From an uncultured Faecalibacterium sp. (GTDB lineage: Bacteria > Bacillota > Clostridia > Oscillospirales > Ruminococcaceae): DNA of 28,635 nucleotides. Positions within the stretch are counted from its first letter, which is position 1, and every line of letters starts with the position of its first letter. Under the pieces are notes generated by a model, which did no database searches, was not told the origin of the DNA, and worked only from the letters and a program-made list of their open reading frames with translations. Positions 8,224-15,210 of this stretch are shown in pieces. Location: positions 1-28,635 of the forward strand of contig CAKSWQ010000028.1 in assembly GCA_934512105.1 (NCBI GenBank), in the 5' to 3' direction. The position numbers were made by a program, and so were the translations under genes.

Positions 8224-8253
8224 TTGACAGCGCACCGCAGCAGGGGATAAGAT
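8224..8253 (+). promoter_or_regulatory. Promoter of the first lipoprotein gene
   Basis: A perfect -35 TTGACA (8224-8229), 18 bases, then -10 TAAGAT (8248-8253). A small hairpin GGGAGC/GCTCCC follows in the leader around 8261-8277. Confidence 0.65.
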
Positions 8254-8302: not shown

Positions 8303-8917
8303 ATGAAGCTTTGGAAACGATGGACGGCAGCGGTCCTTGCAGCTGCAATGGTGCTGCTGCTTTTAGCAGCCTGCGGGCCCTCCGGCCCTTCCGCACCGGA
8401 TGCGCCGGATAAGCCGGGCAGCAGCGAACCCGGCAAGGACCCCGCCGACCCCGGCACAGGAGAGCCCGGCAAAGACCCCTCTGAGGAAAATACCGGGGAA
8501 CAAAAGAAGGCCGCAGTGGTGGAAGTGCTGAACACGGTGCGCAAGAGCTACGGCAAGGAGACTCCGCTGGTCAAGGATGCCGAGGCCTGCGCCATGGCTG
8601 AAAAAATGGCACAATTGCAGCTGGACGGTCTGCTTGGCAAGTACGGCAGCGACCCGATGAAGAGCGAGCAGTATACGAAGGACTGGAACGCCATCAGCAA
8701 GCTGACGGTAAAGGGCAAAAAGCTGGTGGGCGTAGGCGGCTACGGTGCGTATCCCACAGCAACAGTTATCCGCAACTGGGCAGAGAACGGCAGTACCGTG
8801 AAAAAGGCACTGGTCAGTGATGGCAGTGCCACCCTTGTGGGCGTGGGCGTTGTGCAGAACACCGACCCCAAAACGAAGGATCAATACCCCATTATGGTGG
8901 TCGTGATGACCTACTGA
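8303..8917 (+). CDS. Secreted lipoprotein with CAP/SCP-like domain (paralogue 1)
   Basis: The 204 residues begin with a lipoprotein signal whose lipobox LAAC places the lipidated Cys at 24. A Pro/Gly/Ser/Glu linker (25-68) follows, holding EPGKDP twice. The folded part (about 70-204) opens with AAVVEVLNTVRKSYGKETPLVKDAEACAMAEKMA in shorter pieces and ends with GVGVVQN and a terminal VVVMTY. That opening helix and closing strands resemble the CAP (cysteine-rich secretory) fold, though its catalytic-like His residues are not obvious. GCGAGGGA precedes the ATG. The next gene ends in nearly the same residues and has an identical terminator, pointing to a local duplication. Function unknown; probably displayed on the outer face of the membrane. 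Confidence 0.7.
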   Translation: MKLWKRWTAAVLAAAMVLLLLAACGPSGPSAPDAPDKPGSSEPGKDPADPGTGEPGKDPSEENTGEQKKAAVVEVLNTVRKSYGKETPLVKDAEACAMAEKMAQLQLDGLLGKYGSDPMKSEQYTKDWNAISKLTVKGKKLVGVGGYGAYPTATVIRNWAENGSTVKKALVSDGSATLVGVGVVQNTDPKTKDQYPIMVVVMTY

Positions 8918-8924
8918 GTGCGTG

Positions 8925-8962
8925 CAAACGCCGCTGACGAAAAGTCGGCGGCGTTTTTGTGT
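8925..8962 (+). terminator. Terminator of lipoprotein 1 (duplicate of 9591-9628)
   Basis: ACGCCGCTGAC and GTCGGCGGCGT form an 11-bp stem with one T-G pair around GAAAA, then TTTTTG. All 38 bases recur at 9591-9628. Confidence 0.92.
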
Positions 8963-8972
8963 AATCCGCATA

Positions 8973-9003
8973 TTGACAAAAACATGCGGGGGGGGGGTAC
9001 CAT
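8973..9003 (+). promoter_or_regulatory. Putative phase-variable promoter with a G10 tract in the spacer
   Basis: A perfect -35 TTGACA (8973-8978) is followed by AAAACATGC and ten consecutive G (8988-8997), then TACCAT (8998-9003) as the best -10. The spacer is 19 bases here; losing two G would give the optimal 17. The run lies upstream of the second lipoprotein gene, where slipped-strand changes would tune transcription. The -10 matches only 4 of 6 consensus bases, and the tract length could be affected by sequencing error. Confidence 0.5.
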
Positions 9004-9011
9004 ATCTATAT

Positions 9012-9031
9012 GGCAGACTGCATGGTCTGCC
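9012..9031 (+). promoter_or_regulatory. Inverted repeat in the leader of lipoprotein 2
   Basis: GGCAGAC (9012-9018) and GTCTGCC (9025-9031) are a perfect 7-bp inverted repeat around TGCATG. It lies just after the expected transcription start. It could be an operator or an mRNA-stabilising hairpin. Confidence 0.5.
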
Positions 9032-9064
9032 GGGGTATTTATTACTTACAGGAGGGCAAAACGT

Positions 9065-9571
9065 ATGAAATGTATCAAAAAACTGGTTGCGCTTACGCTG
9101 GCTGCTGTGCTGGCGCTGGCTATGCTTACCGCTTGCAGCGGTACACCGAGCGTGCCAGAGGCAACAGATGAAGCAAAGCAGATTGTGGACAACATCAATG
9201 CGGTTCGGACGAAAAATGGCCTGTCGGCACTGGAGGTCAACACAGACGCAACGGATGTGGCTAGTAAAATTTTAGCGCTACATGAAAAGAGGGAACTGAA
9301 CCTGATTTCGACAGAGGACTACACAAAGGAAATACGTGAGCTGTATCTCATTCAGGTGGATGGAAGAGGCCGCGACGGCGATCTGATATCTGTATCTCAC
9401 AGATCGGGCGAGAAGTACCTGACCGAGAAATTCTGGCAGGAAAAGTATGATTTTAACAATATGGACTTTGGTGCTTGCCGGATCGTGCGCAACGCCGAGG
9501 CAAAATATGTTGGCGTTGTTATAAAACAGATCAGCAACGGTGAGTACTTTACGGTCGTTATGACTTACTGA
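9065..9571 (+). CDS. Secreted lipoprotein (paralogue 2)
   Basis: The 168-residue product has a signal peptide and lipobox LTAC with Cys24. A helical segment follows, KQIVDNINAVRTKNGLSALEV in overlapping order with paralogue 1's VVEVLNTVRKSYGKETPLV. The end, YVGVVIKQ..YFTVVMTY, matches the VVVMTY end of its neighbour. The middle is more charged and there is no Pro-rich linker. The ATG at 9065 has AGGAGGG 8 bases upstream; longer in-frame openings lack a ribosome site and would lose the signal peptide. Expression may be set by the G-tract promoter. A divergent CAP-like domain is plausible but not proved. Confidence 0.7.
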   Translation: MKCIKKLVALTLAAVLALAMLTACSGTPSVPEATDEAKQIVDNINAVRTKNGLSALEVNTDATDVASKILALHEKRELNLISTEDYTKEIRELYLIQVDGRGRDGDLISVSHRSGEKYLTEKFWQEKYDFNNMDFGACRIVRNAEAKYVGVVIKQISNGEYFTVVMTY

Positions 9572-9590
9572 GTTGTAATTTAAAACCACG

Positions 9591-9628
9591 CAAACGCCGC
9601 TGACGAAAAGTCGGCGGCGTTTTTGTGT
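9591..9628 (+). terminator. Terminator of lipoprotein 2 (identical to 8925-8962)
   Basis: Same 11-bp stem, GAAAA loop and T-tract as the copy after lipoprotein 1, identical over 38 bases. Confidence 0.92.
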
Positions 9629-9646
9629 GGTCTGCCGGACAACGCA

Positions 9647-10034: not shown

Positions 10035-10062
10035 TTGACTTCCCGCGTCAAAATGATACAAT
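10035..10062 (+). promoter_or_regulatory. Promoter of the rnf operon with an overlapping palindrome
   Basis: -35 TTGACT (10035-10040), 16-base spacer, -10 TACAAT (10057-10062). TTGAC (10035-10039) and GTCAA (10047-10051) form an inverted repeat over the -35 and spacer, a typical place for a repressor. A leader of about 80 bases follows. Confidence 0.65.
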
Positions 10063-10151
10063 AAGTGTGTTAAGCAGCTGCTGTCCCTGTACCAGTGCGC
10101 CTGCATGGGCGAGGGGATGGCAATTCAAGCAGAATGGGGGATTTGAAATCC

Positions 10152-11468
10152 ATGTTGAACAAGCTGAAACGTGCGGCGCTTGGCGCGCATACGCCGCATG
10201 ACAAGGCAACTGCTGCAAGCAAACCTGTCCCGATGCCTCTGCCCGCGCAGGTACGCATCCTTATGAGCCAGCACATTGGCGCACCCGCCAAGGCACTGGT
10301 GAAAAAAGGCGATGAAGTGTTCGTCGGCACCAAGATCGGTGAGGCGGGCGGCTTTGTCTCCGCAAATATCCACTCCAGTGTTTCCGGTACGGTAGCTGCG
10401 GTGGAGGCTTTCCGTCTGTCCAATGGCCGTATGTGCGATTCTGTGGTCATCAAGACCGATGGCAAGCAGACCGTAGACCCGGCTGTCAAGGCACCGGAAG
10501 TCACCGATAAGGCCAGCTTCCTTGCTGCCGTGCGCGAGTGCGGTCTGGTCGGTCTGGGCGGCGCAGGCTTCCCCACCGATGTGAAGCTGCAGCCCAAGCA
10601 GCCGGTGGATACCCTGCTGATCAACGCCTCCGAGTGCGAGGTGTGGCTGACCAGCGACACGCAGGAGATGCTGGAGTGCAGCGATGATATCATCCGCGGC
10701 ATCAAGGCTGTGCTGAAGTATACCGGCATCCCCAAGTGCATCATTGGTATTGAGAACAACAAGCCCGAGTGCATCGACCTGCTGTGCAAAAAGACCAAGG
10801 ACGACAGCGCTATCGAGGTAAAGCCCCTGCCCAGTGTCTACGGCACCGGCGCAGAGCTGATCCTGATCGAGAAGTGCCTCGGCCGCGAGGTGCCCCACGG
10901 CGGTCTGCCCGCCGATGCAGGTGCTATCGTGATGAACGTGACCAGCGTTTCCACGCTGGGCAAGTATCTGGCTACCGGTATGCCGGTGGTCCAGCGTACC
11001 ATCACCGTGGACGGCGATGCCTGCGCAAAGCCCCAGAACGTTGTTGTGCCCGTGGGCACCGCTTATCAGGACATTCTGGACTATGTGGGCGTCAAGGGCG
11101 AGCTGGGCAAGGTGGTTGCCGGCGGTGCCATGATGGGCCCCGCTGTGGAGAACCTTTCCTACCCCACCACCAAGACCACTTCCGGTCTGATCCTGCTGAG
11201 CAAGGCAGCTGCACAGCCTGCACCGGTCAACCCCTGCATCCGCTGCGGCCGCTGCGTGGAGTACTGCCCCATGGGTCTGGAGCCCGTGGAGGTCAATCAG
11301 GCCTACGCCGCCCGCGATGTGCAGGAGCTGGGCAAGCTGCATGCTGACTACTGCTTCAACTGCGGCAGCTGCTCCTTCGTCTGCCCGGCAAAGCGCCCGG
11401 TCACCCAGATGATGAGTCTGGCCAAGGCCTTCTATCTTGGCGAAATCAAAAAAGGAGGCAATAAGTAA
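10152..11468 (+). CDS. rnfC: Rnf complex subunit C (NADH-binding, 2 x [4Fe-4S])
   Basis: This peripheral cytoplasmic subunit of the ferredoxin:NAD+ oxidoreductase binds NADH and FMN. From the chosen ATG it has 438 residues: an RnfC N-terminal domain with PHDKATA and HIGAPAKALVKKGDEVFVGTKIGEA (the usual RnfC entry), a Rossmann-like FMN/NADH domain with GLGGAGFPTDVK, an SLBB region, and two clusters, CIRCGRCVEYCP (from about 362) and CFNCGSCSFVCP (from about 401). The ATG at 10152 is preceded by GGGGGAT; in-frame ATG 10134 and GTG 10095 are alternatives with poorer spacing. The stop overlaps the rnfD start by one base (TAATG). Confidence 0.95.
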   Translation: MLNKLKRAALGAHTPHDKATAASKPVPMPLPAQVRILMSQHIGAPAKALVKKGDEVFVGTKIGEAGGFVSANIHSSVSGTVAAVEAFRLSNGRMCDSVVIKTDGKQTVDPAVKAPEVTDKASFLAAVRECGLVGLGGAGFPTDVKLQPKQPVDTLLINASECEVWLTSDTQEMLECSDDIIRGIKAVLKYTGIPKCIIGIENNKPECIDLLCKKTKDDSAIEVKPLPSVYGTGAELILIEKCLGREVPHGGLPADAGAIVMNVTSVSTLGKYLATGMPVVQRTITVDGDACAKPQNVVVPVGTAYQDILDYVGVKGELGKVVAGGAMMGPAVENLSYPTTKTTSGLILLSKAAAQPAPVNPCIRCGRCVEYCPMGLEPVEVNQAYAARDVQELGKLHADYCFNCGSCSFVCPAKRPVTQMMSLAKAFYLGEIKKGGNK

Positions 11469-12427
11469 TGGATACGAAGCTTATTGTTTCGGCTTCCCCG
11501 CACGTCCGCAGTGACGAGACCACCCAGAGCCTGATGGCGAATGTGATCGTTGCACTGTGCCCCTGCGTGGTTGCCTCTGCGATCATTTTCGGCGTGCGCG
11601 CCCTGCTGGTCACCGCCGTTTCCGTGGTGGCCTGTGTGGTCTTTGAGTGGCTGTACTGCAAGCTGCTGAAGCGTCCGAACCCCATCAGCGACCTGTCCGC
11701 TGTGGTCACCGGCATCATTCTGGCCATGAACGTGCCCGTGGGCATGCCCATCGGTCAGCTGATCATCGGCGATCTGGTGGCTATCATCGTTGTCAAGCAG
11801 CTGTTCGGCGGCATTGGCATGAACTTTGCAAACCCCGCTCTGGTGGGCCGTATCGTGCTGTTCATCAGCTTTGCAGGCTCCATGAATCAGTGGGTGTTCC
11901 CGGATGCAGCGGTGGATCAGCTGTCCAAGGCTACCCCGCTGGCTGTGGCAGATCCCTCCAAGCTGAGCCTGCTGGATCTGTTCATGGGCATCCACGGCGG
12001 TGTGCTGGGCGAGACCTGCGCACTGGCTATCGTGCTGGGTCTGATCTATCTGGTGGCTACCAAGACCATCAGCATCGCCATCCCGGCTTCCTACGTTGGC
12101 AGCGTGTTCGTGTTCTACCTGATCGCTACCAAGGATCTGCACACCGCACTGGTTGCCGTGCTGAGCGGCGGCCTGCTGTTCGGCGCTGTGTTCATGGCTA
12201 CCGACTACGTTACCAGCCCCTTTACCCTGAAGGGCAAGCTGGTGTACGGCGTTTGCCTTGGCATCGTTACCTTTGCCATCCGCTACTGGGGCAGCTACAC
12301 CGAGGGCGTGTCCTTCGCACTGCTGTTCATGAACCTGTGGGTCCCGTACATCAATGATCTGACCCGTCAGACCCCGTATGGCTATGTGAAGCCTGCAAAG
12401 AAAGCGAAGGAGGGTGCTGGCAAATGA
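11468..12427 (+). CDS. rnfD: Rnf complex subunit D (flavinylated membrane subunit)
   Basis: This integral membrane subunit carries covalent FMN and takes part in electron transfer coupled to ion pumping. The 319 residues have multiple hydrophobic helices, NPISDLSAVVTGIILAMN at about 71-88 and GGIGMNFANPALVGR at about 114-128, both typical of RnfD/NqrB. The FMN-attachment site is expected at Thr156 in SKATPL. AAAGGAGG lies before the start, which overlaps the rnfC stop. Its own stop overlaps the rnfG start (ATGA). Confidence 0.95.
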   Translation: MDTKLIVSASPHVRSDETTQSLMANVIVALCPCVVASAIIFGVRALLVTAVSVVACVVFEWLYCKLLKRPNPISDLSAVVTGIILAMNVPVGMPIGQLIIGDLVAIIVVKQLFGGIGMNFANPALVGRIVLFISFAGSMNQWVFPDAAVDQLSKATPLAVADPSKLSLLDLFMGIHGGVLGETCALAIVLGLIYLVATKTISIAIPASYVGSVFVFYLIATKDLHTALVAVLSGGLLFGAVFMATDYVTSPFTLKGKLVYGVCLGIVTFAIRYWGSYTEGVSFALLFMNLWVPYINDLTRQTPYGYVKPAKKAKEGAGK

Positions 12428-12978
12428 GTAAGACTGCAAATTCCAGCTGGGAAACCACCGGTAAGCCCATCGTTGTGCTGACCGTCATCTCTCTGATCGT
12501 CAGCCTGCTGCTGGCTCTGGTGAACGGCATGACCGCTCCCGTTATCAAGGAGAACACCCGCCGCACCACGCTGGCTGCTTATGTCAGCGTGATGCCCTCT
12601 GTTTCGGACGCAGCTACGCTGGAGGAAGTTACCGATTACACCACCGCCAATGTTACCGGCGTGGTGAAGGCTCCCGATGGCGGCATTGCCATCAAGGCCG
12701 AGGAAAAGGGCTTTGACGGCGGCATCCTGACCGTGATCATGGGCTTCGACGCCAACGGCGCCGAGACCGGCATCTGGGTGGACGCTTCTACCCAGACCAA
12801 GGGCATCGGCTCCAATGTGTCCACCGATGACTATCTGGCACAGTTCAACGGCATGGACGGCACCAAGAACATTGTGATGAATCAGGATTTCGATGCGTAC
12901 AGCGGCGCAACCATTTCGTCCACCGCTCTGTTTGCTGCCATCAATGACTGCATCAACTGCTTCAACGAGCTGGCATAA
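12424..12978 (+). CDS. rnfG: Rnf complex subunit G (flavinylated extracytoplasmic subunit)
   Basis: This subunit has one N-terminal transmembrane helix (about 14-36) and an FMN-binding domain outside the membrane. The flavinylation motif SGAT lies at 160-163 within DAYSGATISSTAL, with Thr163 as the expected attachment residue. Length 184 aa, normal for the family. The start overlaps the rnfD stop by four bases. ApbE, which attaches the FMN, is not in the window. Confidence 0.95.
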   Translation: MSKTANSSWETTGKPIVVLTVISLIVSLLLALVNGMTAPVIKENTRRTTLAAYVSVMPSVSDAATLEEVTDYTTANVTGVVKAPDGGIAIKAEEKGFDGGILTVIMGFDANGAETGIWVDASTQTKGIGSNVSTDDYLAQFNGMDGTKNIVMNQDFDAYSGATISSTALFAAINDCINCFNELA

Positions 12979-12995
12979 AAGGAGGTTGGTAAGAA

Positions 12996-13661
12996 ATGGC
13001 ACAAGAAAATAAGTCCAAGGTAAGCATCCTTACCAACGGCATCATCAAAGAAAACCCCGTTCTGCGTCTGGTTCTGGGTACCTGCTCCATTCTGGCAGTT
13101 ACCACCGCAGTTTCCAGCGCTCTGGGCATGGGCGCCGCCTTCACCTTCGTGCTGGTGTGCTCCAATATCATGATCTCCCTGCTGCGCAAGGTGATCCCCG
13201 GCAAGGTGCATCTGCCCTGCTACATCGTCATCATTGCAGGCTTTGTGACCATCGTGCAGATGTTCATGCAGGCCTACATGGAAAGCCTGTACAACGCACT
13301 GGGCGTGTTCCTGCCCCTGATCGTTGTCAACTGTATCATTCTGGGCCGTGCCGAGATGTTCGCCTGCAAGAACAATGTCGTGGACTCCGCACTGGACGGT
13401 GTGGGCATGGGCATCGGCTACACCCTCACCGCTACCCTGATGGCAACCATCCGTGAGATCCTGGGCAGCGGCACCTGGCTGGGCTTCCAGGTGATCCCGG
13501 AAAGCGTTGCCAAGGTCTCCATCATGACGCAGGCTCCCGGCGCCTTCTTCTGCTACGGCATCCTGATGGCAGGCTGCATCTGGCTGGAAGGCAAGCTGGA
13601 CGCCCGCATCGAGCGCAAGAGCTGCTGTGATCTTGACAATCTGAAGAAGGAGGCGGAATAA
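12996..13661 (+). CDS. rnfE: Rnf complex subunit E (membrane)
   Basis: This 221-residue membrane subunit is homologous to RnfA, inserted in opposite topology. Family segments include ENPVLRLVLGTCSILAVT (about 19-36) with the cluster-binding Cys, and LPLIVVNCIILGRAE (about 107-121) with the second. The two Cys-containing half-helices of RnfA and RnfE hold a membrane [2Fe-2S] cluster. AAAAGGAGG precedes the ATG. Confidence 0.95.
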   Translation: MAQENKSKVSILTNGIIKENPVLRLVLGTCSILAVTTAVSSALGMGAAFTFVLVCSNIMISLLRKVIPGKVHLPCYIVIIAGFVTIVQMFMQAYMESLYNALGVFLPLIVVNCIILGRAEMFACKNNVVDSALDGVGMGIGYTLTATLMATIREILGSGTWLGFQVIPESVAKVSIMTQAPGAFFCYGILMAGCIWLEGKLDARIERKSCCDLDNLKKEAE

Positions 13662-13662
13662 G

Positions 13663-14295
13663 ATGCTCGTCAAACTCGCTGCGATCTTCTTCAGCATGAT
13701 CCTTGTCAACAACTATGTGCTGGTGAAGTTCTACGGTATCTGCCCGTTCCTGGGCGTTTCCAAAAAGCTGGATTCCGCTGTGGGTATGTCCGGTGCTGTC
13801 ATCTTTGTCATGTTCATGGCAACGGCCGTTACCTTCCCCATCCAGATCTTCATTCTGGACCAGGCTGGTCTGAGCTACCTGCAGACCATCGTGTTCATTC
13901 TGGTCATCGCTGTGCTGGTGCAGTTCATCGAGATCTTCCTCAAGAAGTACATGGTTGCACTGTATAACTCGCTGGGCGTTTATCTGCCCCTGATCACCAC
14001 CAACTGCTGCGTGCTGGCCGTGACCATTCTGGTCGTGGGCGACTACGGCGCCGATGTGGCTGCACACGGCTTCGGCTACGCCTACATCGAGGCTCTGATC
14101 TGCGCTATCGGCGCAGGCTGCGGCTTTATGCTGGCCATGGTCATGTTCAGCGGCGTGCGTAAGCGCGTGGAAGCCTGCGATCCCCCGGCACCCTTCAAGG
14201 GCCTGCCCATCACCCTGATCGCAGCTGCAATCACCAGCCTGTCCTTCATGGGCTTCGGCGGCATCGTCGAAAACCTGTTCAATGTTACGCTGTAA
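13663..14295 (+). CDS. rnfA: Rnf complex subunit A (membrane)
   Basis: This six-helix, 210-residue partner of RnfE begins one base after the rnfE stop with its ribosome site AGGAGG inside rnfE. It shows NNYVLVKFYGICPFLGVSKK (about 14-33) and LPLITTNCCVLAV (about 109-121), the conserved Cys-bearing helices. With RnfE it forms the intramembrane electron and ion path. Confidence 0.95.
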   Translation: MLVKLAAIFFSMILVNNYVLVKFYGICPFLGVSKKLDSAVGMSGAVIFVMFMATAVTFPIQIFILDQAGLSYLQTIVFILVIAVLVQFIEIFLKKYMVALYNSLGVYLPLITTNCCVLAVTILVVGDYGADVAAHGFGYAYIEALICAIGAGCGFMLAMVMFSGVRKRVEACDPPAPFKGLPITLIAAAITSLSFMGFGGIVENLFNVTL

Positions 14296-14310
14296 GGGAG
14301 GAACAGGACT

Positions 14311-15210
14311 ATGAATATTGTATCTGCTGTTATCCTGTGCACCATCGTGGGCGCTGTGGGTGCTATCATTCTGGTGGCTGCCGCAAAGTTCATGGCGGTG
14401 GAGGAAGACCCCCGCATTGAGGAAGTTTCCGCCTGTCTGGCCGGCGCAAACTGCGGCGGCTGCGGCTACGCAGGCTGCGCCGACTACGCCAAGGCAGTTG
14501 TTCTGGACGGCGTGCCCTGCGACAAGTGCGCACCCGGCGGCCCCAAGGCTGCCGCTGCCATTGCCAAGATCATGGGCGGCGAGGCAAGCGCCGTAGAGAA
14601 GAAGGCTGTTGTGCAGTGTCAGGGCAGCTCCGAGCACTGCAAGCCCGCCTACGACTACAAGGGCATCCAGACCTGCGCTGCTGCTGCAGCCCTGTACGGC
14701 GGCCCCAAGACCTGCTCCTTCGCCTGCATCGGTCTGGGCGACTGCACCAAGGTGTGTAAGTTCGACGCCATCCACATCGTGGACGGTGTGGCCAAGGTGG
14801 ACAAGGACAAGTGCACCGGCTGTGGTGCCTGCGCCAACATCTGCCCCAAGCAGGTGATTATGATCGACGCCGGCGGCCCCCGCAAGCCGGTGGTCATGTG
14901 CTCCAACAAGGACAAGGGTGCTGTGGCCAACAAGCTGTGCACCACCTCCTGCATCGCCTGCGGCATGTGCGAGCGCACCTGTAAGTTCGACGCCATCCAT
15001 GTTGTGGACGGCGTGGCACGCGTTGATTACGACAAGTGCAAGGGCTGCGGTATGTGTGCCCAGAAGTGCCCCAAGCACATCATCCTGTTCCCGCTGAAGG
15101 ACGACCCCAATCCCCCGAAGCCCGTGGTGAAGCCCGCCGCTCCCGCTGCTGCCCCCGCAGCAAAGCCGGAGGCCAAGGCTGAGGCAAAGCCCGAGACCAA
15201 GGCAGAGTAA
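14311..15210 (+). CDS. rnfB: Rnf complex subunit B (ferredoxin-oxidising, multi-cluster)
   Basis: It accepts electrons from reduced ferredoxin. The 299 residues have an N-terminal membrane helix (about 5-24), a four-Cys cluster motif (Cys42, 48, 51, 56, with further Cys70 and 73), then two ferredoxin-like modules with CSFACIGLGDCTKVCK (about 135-150), CTGCGACANICP (168-179), CIACGMCERTCK (214-225) and CKGCGMCAQKCP (243-254). A tail of Pro, Ala, Lys and Glu (about 269-299) is extra. GGGAGGAAC precedes the ATG. It ends the operon in the order C-D-G-E-A-B usual for clostridial Rnf. Confidence 0.95.
   Translation: MNIVSAVILCTIVGAVGAIILVAAAKFMAVEEDPRIEEVSACLAGANCGGCGYAGCADYAKAVVLDGVPCDKCAPGGPKAAAAIAKIMGGEASAVEKKAVVQCQGSSEHCKPAYDYKGIQTCAAAAALYGGPKTCSFACIGLGDCTKVCKFDAIHIVDGVAKVDKDKCTGCGACANICPKQVIMIDAGGPRKPVVMCSNKDKGAVANKLCTTSCIACGMCERTCKFDAIHVVDGVARVDYDKCKGCGMCAQKCPKHIILFPLKDDPNPPKPVVKPAAPAAAPAAKPEAKAEAKPETKAE

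Follow-up and report, generated by a model that had tools for sequence, protein, structure and literature searches.

A poly-G promoter spacer upstream of a Faecalibacterium lipoprotein gene: a probable slipped-strand switch and similar promoters in its genus

The run of ten guanines at positions 8988..8997 (+ strand) of the 28.6-kb stretch of DNA analysed here (the window), which probably comes from a gut bacterium, is likely to be a contingency locus, with slipped-strand phase variation of promoter spacing acting on a lipoprotein gene. In the proposed mechanism, slipped-strand mispairing during replication would add or remove a G in the tract and alter the distance between the -35 and -10 boxes, G8 giving 17 nt, G9 18 nt and G10 19 nt. 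Spacer length would in turn set promoter strength, with the 19-nt G10 form weak and mostly off and the 17-nt G8 form the strongest, and a single population would then contain cells with differing levels of a CAP-like surface lipoprotein. The window locus would be one of a genus-wide set of promoters that drive lipoproteins almost exclusively. The sequence-only reading of this DNA had proposed a phase-variation switch, and the backing that it now receives is comparative: the layout recurs in many independent G8-G12 spacers of the genus, the targets are nearly all lipoproteins there and mostly exported proteins elsewhere, tract length changes between copies and orthologs of relatives whose flanks are the same or nearly so, and two of three promoter sets avoid the 17-nt spacing. 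Switching within a strain, an effect of 17-, 18- and 19-nt spacers on transcription and a benefit at the host surface are what we infer from these comparisons.

On the + strand, a perfect consensus -35 box (TTGACA, 8973..8978) is followed by a 19-nt spacer (8979..8997) consisting of AAAACATGC and the G10 tract, and the tract, which is the proposed slippage site, directly adjoins the -10 box TACCAT (8998..9003). These elements stand in the sequence exactly as first described, and the lipoprotein gene and strong ribosome site that had been placed some 60 bases on are there as well, with AGGAGG at 9050..9055 (+ strand) and the ATG at 9065, 61 nt past TACCAT. A consensus promoter scan of the window omits this TTGACA-G10-TACCAT site; the spacers permitted by the scan are 16-18 nt only.

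The homologous region was aligned with MAFFT in G001, the nearest genome compared, and in G007, which has two tandem copies, over the terminator-like repeat, the -35 box, the 5' UTR and the start codon. The three homologous promoters all keep TTGACA, followed by 17 nt and TACACT, and their spacers are mixed sequences without a tract (GCCGCCGCCTGCGGGTT, GCCGCCGCCCGTGAGGT and GCCGTCGCCTGCGGGGT). TACCAT and TACACT both lie 7 nt before a conserved TGGCAG, a match that comes from counting back from TGGCAG, as MAFFT itself sets a 2-nt gap within the -10 box. The window spacer has a quite different sequence and two extra bases, and G8 would therefore give the 17 nt of the homologs; the earlier arithmetic, in which loss of two Gs leads to 17 nt, holds and arrives at the spacing of three related promoters. 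Together with the position of a 5'-UTR hairpin (vide infra), these homologs argue that TTGACA/TACCAT is a genuine promoter, as had been claimed. Two features count against a switch: the -10 box matches the consensus at only four of six positions, and among the four aligned promoters the tract is present in the window alone. A second copy of the window's own tract was likewise absent from viral_contigs (0 matches) and from the G001 and G007 homologs.

The predicted 5'-UTR hairpin (9012..9031, + strand), GGCAGACT-GCAT-GGTCTGCC, has a z of -2.7 and a sequence largely conserved in the homologs. It begins 9 nt past TACCAT, at about the predicted transcript start, and is a possible mRNA 5' stabiliser. 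Many tract promoters have a similar hairpin downstream, such as GAAAGGAAAGGACCTTCCTTTC in class A (vide infra), and hairpins are modestly stronger after tract promoters than after ordinary ones (33 versus 49 sites, p 0.009).

The gene itself (9065..9571, + strand) encodes a 168-aa product that starts MKCIKKLVALTLAAVLALAMLTAC, a lipoprotein signal peptide with the lipobox LTAC. Its CAP/SCP domain (PF00188) passes the curated Pfam cutoff narrowly and is borderline (21.2 versus 21.1 bits); there are 219 homologs at E <= 0.001, with a top identity of 95%, and PF00188 is precomputed for several among the best 120 of these 219. The upstream neighbour (8303..8917, + strand) is a lipoprotein-like gene whose promoter-like site (TTGACA at 8224, 18 nt, TAAGAT) has no G-tract. 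A 46-nt terminator-like repeat (8924..8969, + strand) lies between the two genes and has a 93% identical copy at 9590-9635, so that one copy stands after each gene of the tandem pair. Because the same repeat lies between the tandem copies of G007, the lipoprotein array looks as if it had grown by duplication. Farther downstream, ORFs at 10146-15210, with a promoter-like site at 10035-10062, resemble an Rnf electron-transport cluster.

A mechanical ORF that opens at GTG 8918 passes through the tract and into the lipoprotein at G10, and slippage could on that basis be imagined to act in translation, changing the N-terminus of the protein. Such a translational switch is extremely improbable, since this ORF includes the terminator-like repeat at 8924-8969 and would bury the signal peptide, and since only 5 of 35 genus loci (overlapping loci kept) have the tract in one open frame with the gene that follows.

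G10 is the longest homopolymer in the window, as the sequence-only reading had noticed; the next-longest runs are two of A7, and the second-longest G or C runs are of 6. Length by itself is about a 10% event, since 30 of 300 windows simulated with an order-1 Markov model had a G/C run of at least 10. However, genomes of the genus avoid such runs. An 800-kb sample of two genus genomes (57.6% G+C) contains 3608 G/C runs of length 4, 941 of length 5, 74 of length 6, one of length 7 and three of length 8 or more, and an order-3 model expects 31.8 runs of length 7. A run of 10 exactly between a perfect -35 box and a -10 box is therefore far beyond chance, despite the modest improbability of its length. 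A chance homopolymer, which the simulated windows would allow, or an assembly error is very improbable given that the layout occurs in many independent assemblies, that the backwards control gave no match in the genus, and that run lengths at such sites are two-humped (vide infra).

Three loci retrieved for other reasons showed the same layout as the window. Of 31 genus genomes, 17 contain the pattern TTGACA-N2-14-G8 and none contains its backwards control. The C version of the pattern was found in one of the 31 and its backwards control had 6 matches, so that long C-runs do occur in the genus. In an order-level sample, a pattern that also calls for TA after the tract, which the 17/31 figure does not, matched 21 of 394 genomes (14 of 168 genera); the control had no tabulated match. 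Phylum samples gave 5 of 299 genomes with a looser pattern (backwards control, 1 match) and 1 of 398 with a strict TATAAT pattern. On these counts, G-tract promoters are mainly a feature of the window's genus and are otherwise scattered over a few lineages. Among named species genomes, the strict pattern has at least 120 matching stretches; the taxa among the 80 matches listed include uncultured Clostridia and Bacilli, Spirochaetia, Saccharibacteria, Streptobacillus, Helicobacter, Streptococcus, Blautia and others, and Hydrogenoanaerobacterium saccharovorans An564 (Oscillospiraceae in NCBI) is among the named-genome matches listed. These matches had first suggested a very wide spread, an impression that the low counts in the phylum samples corrected. 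A phage-borne element is disfavoured by the viral_contigs counts, where the strict pattern had 1 match and the C version and a window-specific version had 0 each. At four named-genome loci (L173, L176, L183 and L200), two G-tract promoters lie a few kb apart before similar exported proteins, and these tandem pairs are possibly phase-variable families outside the genus.

The pattern TTGACA-N11-17-GGGG-TAnnnT has 25 matches in eight complete genomes. The G-run at the end of the spacer is G4 at 5 sites, G5 at 3, G6 and G7 at 1 each, G8 at 3, G9 and G10 at 4 each, G11 at 3 and G12 at 1. The distribution is two-humped, with 8 or more at 15 of the 25 sites and 6 or 7 at only 2, whereas G/C runs in general fall steeply with length. 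The same genomes contain 80 G8+ runs altogether, and TTGACA lies within the 14 nt before only 20 of them, so the idea that long G-runs are nearly exclusive to such promoters was dropped. The 20 are a lower bound for promoter-like tracts, because at least three other runs, of G8-G11, follow TTGATT and precede TAnnnT (L325 and L327 in G022, L352 in G046; TATGAT, TATAAT or TAGAAT). By their sequence, these TTGATT sites appear to be tract promoters with a weaker -35 box that the TTGACA pattern misses.

The other G8+ runs include poly-C promoters of exported proteins as well as runs within genes. In the poly-C class, C9-C10 stands directly before boxes like GTAAAAAT, GTAAAATA or GTAATAAT (L353, L354, L356, L357 and L365, in G046 and G011); an exported protein starts 33-34 nt past the tract at L356, L357 and L365, and at L353 and L354, where the layout is similar, the reading frames are candidates. 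A tract of C9-C11 also lies at the extreme 3' end of one gene (L324, L334, L343, L345 and L371, in G013, G047, G044, G007 and G001), with ORFs of 264-284 aa as delimited in the analysis. Its product ends in ...SKPVDIxALEQxVKRFRVTPP, presumably a receiver-domain-like ending, and both tract length and C-terminus vary between species; slippage there may change the C-terminus. Two G-tract promoters of G047 are interrupted by A (C1:91783-91811, GGGGAGGGGG; C1:2224389-2224419, GAGGGGGGG) and are possibly locked or decayed forms of slip-prone promoters.

The tract promoters of the genus can be described as two classes. Class B, to which the window belongs, consists of dispersed sites with TTGACA, 3-14 nt, G8-G12 and then usually TAnnnT, and most of these sites share with the window a tract that adjoins the -10 box. 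At all 26 dispersed sites listed for the TTGACA-N2-14-G8 pattern in the genus and at the window, 25 of the 27 targets are lipoproteins and two (L059 and L075) are other exported proteins, as assigned by signal-peptide heuristics and reading by eye; L075 escaped the search expression used for class B and was read separately. Several class B lipoproteins have a Tat-like start (SRRxFLK) and a cysteine lipobox. With the same classifier, a crude gene call over 800 kb of two genus genomes gave a background of 28 lipoproteins among 619 genes (Fisher p 4e-28, without regard to relatedness). In class A, one leader, TTGACACC-G8-10-TATGYTATRAT-like, is repeated before many genes of a genome. G023 has at least 14 copies; the leaders of these 14 are identical over 60 nt or to the contig end, with G8 in 8 and G9 in 6; many are at contig ends, and all six readable genes encode lipoproteins, as do all six readable genes of the seven copies in G015. 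There are also TTGACACC-G sites without the class A leader, namely L073, with an exported product, and L057 (TTGACACC-G10), where the called ORF has no clear signal peptide.

The link to exported genes is looser outside the genus. An ORF was found at 24 of 34 order-level loci, and four are flagged as lipoproteins; most of the remaining products start like signal peptides, with L107, L112 and L133 as clear exceptions by eye. Among the 120 named-genome loci listed, out of at least 120, 88 of 114 tract promoters precede genes for exported proteins, compared with 3 of 20 ordinary TTGACA-TATAAT promoters at the same loci (p 1.7e-7).

The strong gene-class specificity within the genus would also be expected if the G-tract were the operator of a surface-gene regulator, such as a metal sensor with G-rich operators, or a G-quadruplex, with changes in length as tolerated noise. 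TAC/ATACA or TGC/GCC stands before many tracts and might be taken as part of such a site. However, no strict consensus exists beside the tract other than the promoter boxes, and tract length spans 8 to 12 or more. The layout also recurs in distant phyla, which makes one shared regulator unlikely, and a binding site is on the whole quite improbable.

A slip-prone tract would be expected to differ in length between near-identical copies or orthologs, and in relatives of the window it does so within class A. In G023, L255 (G9) and L265 (G8) have different tracts although the 25 nt upstream and the 60 nt downstream are the same, and this is also true of a further G023 pair (L261 with G8, L268 with G9) and of a G015 pair (L273 with G8, L274 with G10), each again identical over the 85 flanking nt. 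Class B orthologs show the same tendency. G8 in G011 corresponds to G10 in G047, with one substitution in 80 nt upstream and four in 120 nt downstream; G10 in G046 corresponds to G9 in G047, with two substitutions and four gap positions upstream and five substitutions downstream; and G9 in G006 corresponds to G10 in G013, with two substitutions and two gap positions upstream and seven substitutions downstream. Tract length thus appears to move faster than its flanks in relatives. In the G006/G013 pair, a change at the tract edge holds the total spacer at 16 nt. A total of 16 nt is kept despite a tract difference in two pairs (L060/L070 and the two L065 promoters), which hints at constrained spacing at some loci.

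The lengths of the spacers bear on the same point. In the genus sample, 17 nt is the commonest spacer of ordinary TTGACA-TAnnnT sites (39 of 82). The 22 class B sites with an abutting TAnnnT have spacers of 16 (4), 18 (8), 19 (6), 20 (2), 21 (1) and 23 nt (1), and 17 nt occurs at none of them (0/22 versus 39/82, p 9e-6); these 22 leave out L075 (16 nt), L035 (17 nt to the tract end, AAACTT following), L089 (ATAATA following) and L066 and L091, where the tract ends 12-13 nt past TTGACA. The named-genome tract promoters listed have spacers of 14-20 nt, with 17 nt in 9 of 127 compared with 14 of 27 ordinary promoters at the same loci; for 17 versus 16 and 18 nt together, p is 4e-5 in this set, where the pattern restricted spacers to 13-19. 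At the 34 order-level loci, 17 nt is not depleted (6 at 17, 1 at 16, 6 at 18 and 9 at 19). Tract spacers therefore avoid 17 nt in two of the three sets, and the p values are too small because the sequences within each set are related. This avoidance can be read in two ways: the majority state sampled may be off, with one or two slips needed to turn the promoter on, or the optimal length may be different for poly-G spacers.

Avoidance of 17 nt is also what might be seen in a lineage that wants moderate promoters, and the tract could simply be stable, holding a weak promoter of constant expression at an unfavourable 19-nt spacing or giving its spacer an unusual shape. The pairs that hold a 16-nt total despite a tract change would agree with this, and homopolymers near a -10 box need not switch: PMC6389960 describes a 5A/6A tract before the -10 box of nspA that sets expression with no switching observed, and PMC2268961 a T-tract that lies immediately before the vpma -10 box and has no part in switching. 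A fixed weak promoter is nonetheless unlikely. A homopolymer is unnecessary for poor spacing, and the genus otherwise avoids G/C runs of 7 or more; moreover, the tract differs between copies with 85 identical flanking nt, and the targets in the genus are nearly all surface proteins.

A broader picture has a somewhat better than even chance of being correct, namely that the lineage (the genus, and patchily the order and others) runs a lipoprotein phasome. Many genes would each have a slip-prone G-tract promoter, with at least 14 copies of one near-identical leader in one species and tracts mostly one or two bases off 17 nt; most copies would be off, and the lipoproteins displayed to host and phage would be a random subset that differs from cell to cell. 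The mechanism is known, and a lipoprotein phasome of a clostridial lineage is apparently undescribed. Among the titles and abstract openings listed, from a literature with few subscription journals or preprints, there was no report of such homopolymer promoter switching in Faecalibacterium or other clostridia, and the terms spacer, spacing, porA and Firmicutes are absent from the accessible part of one review (PMC11868660). If the picture is correct, clostridia with lineage-wide poly-G lipoprotein promoters would also hedge their surface at random, which would bear on strain variation, phage resistance, immune recognition and the reproducibility of work with strains.

Host-adapted pathogens and mycoplasmas provide the best-known cases of surface proteins switched by slippage. 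The porA gene of Neisseria meningitidis has a poly-G promoter tract. A poly-C promoter tract is described for opc of the same species (PMC6389960), and in Mycoplasma hyorhinis vlp, M. arthritidis maa2 and M. mycoides vmm, indels in the -35/-10 spacer switch surface proteins on and off (PMC2268961). The window resembles porA, opc and vlp in having a homopolymer between the -35 and -10 boxes and an exported target, here with a lipobox. As in porA and opc, the length of a promoter homopolymer would set how strongly a surface-protein gene is transcribed, but those are single loci of a Gram-negative pathogen, whereas here many promoters of a clostridial lineage are concerned and most of them drive lipoproteins. 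The vlp genes are a lipoprotein gene family switched through the promoter spacer, as the present genes would be. However, the vlp tract is poly-A, whereas the tracts here are poly-G, in genomes of 57.6% G+C (as sampled) where G-runs are otherwise avoided, and class B genes lie at dispersed places. The homopolymeric-tract survey of Orsi et al. concerns, in its accessible part, tracts within coding genes (PMC2831843). Pili of the gut commensal Bifidobacterium breve UCC2003 vary by replication slippage in G-tracts, which is modulated in vivo, and the paper also notes more G-tracts of that strain, located in promoter spacers (PMC9187656). The B. breve tracts that were studied lie inside genes of an actinobacterium and act as frameshift switches, whereas those described here lie in the promoter spacers of clostridia.
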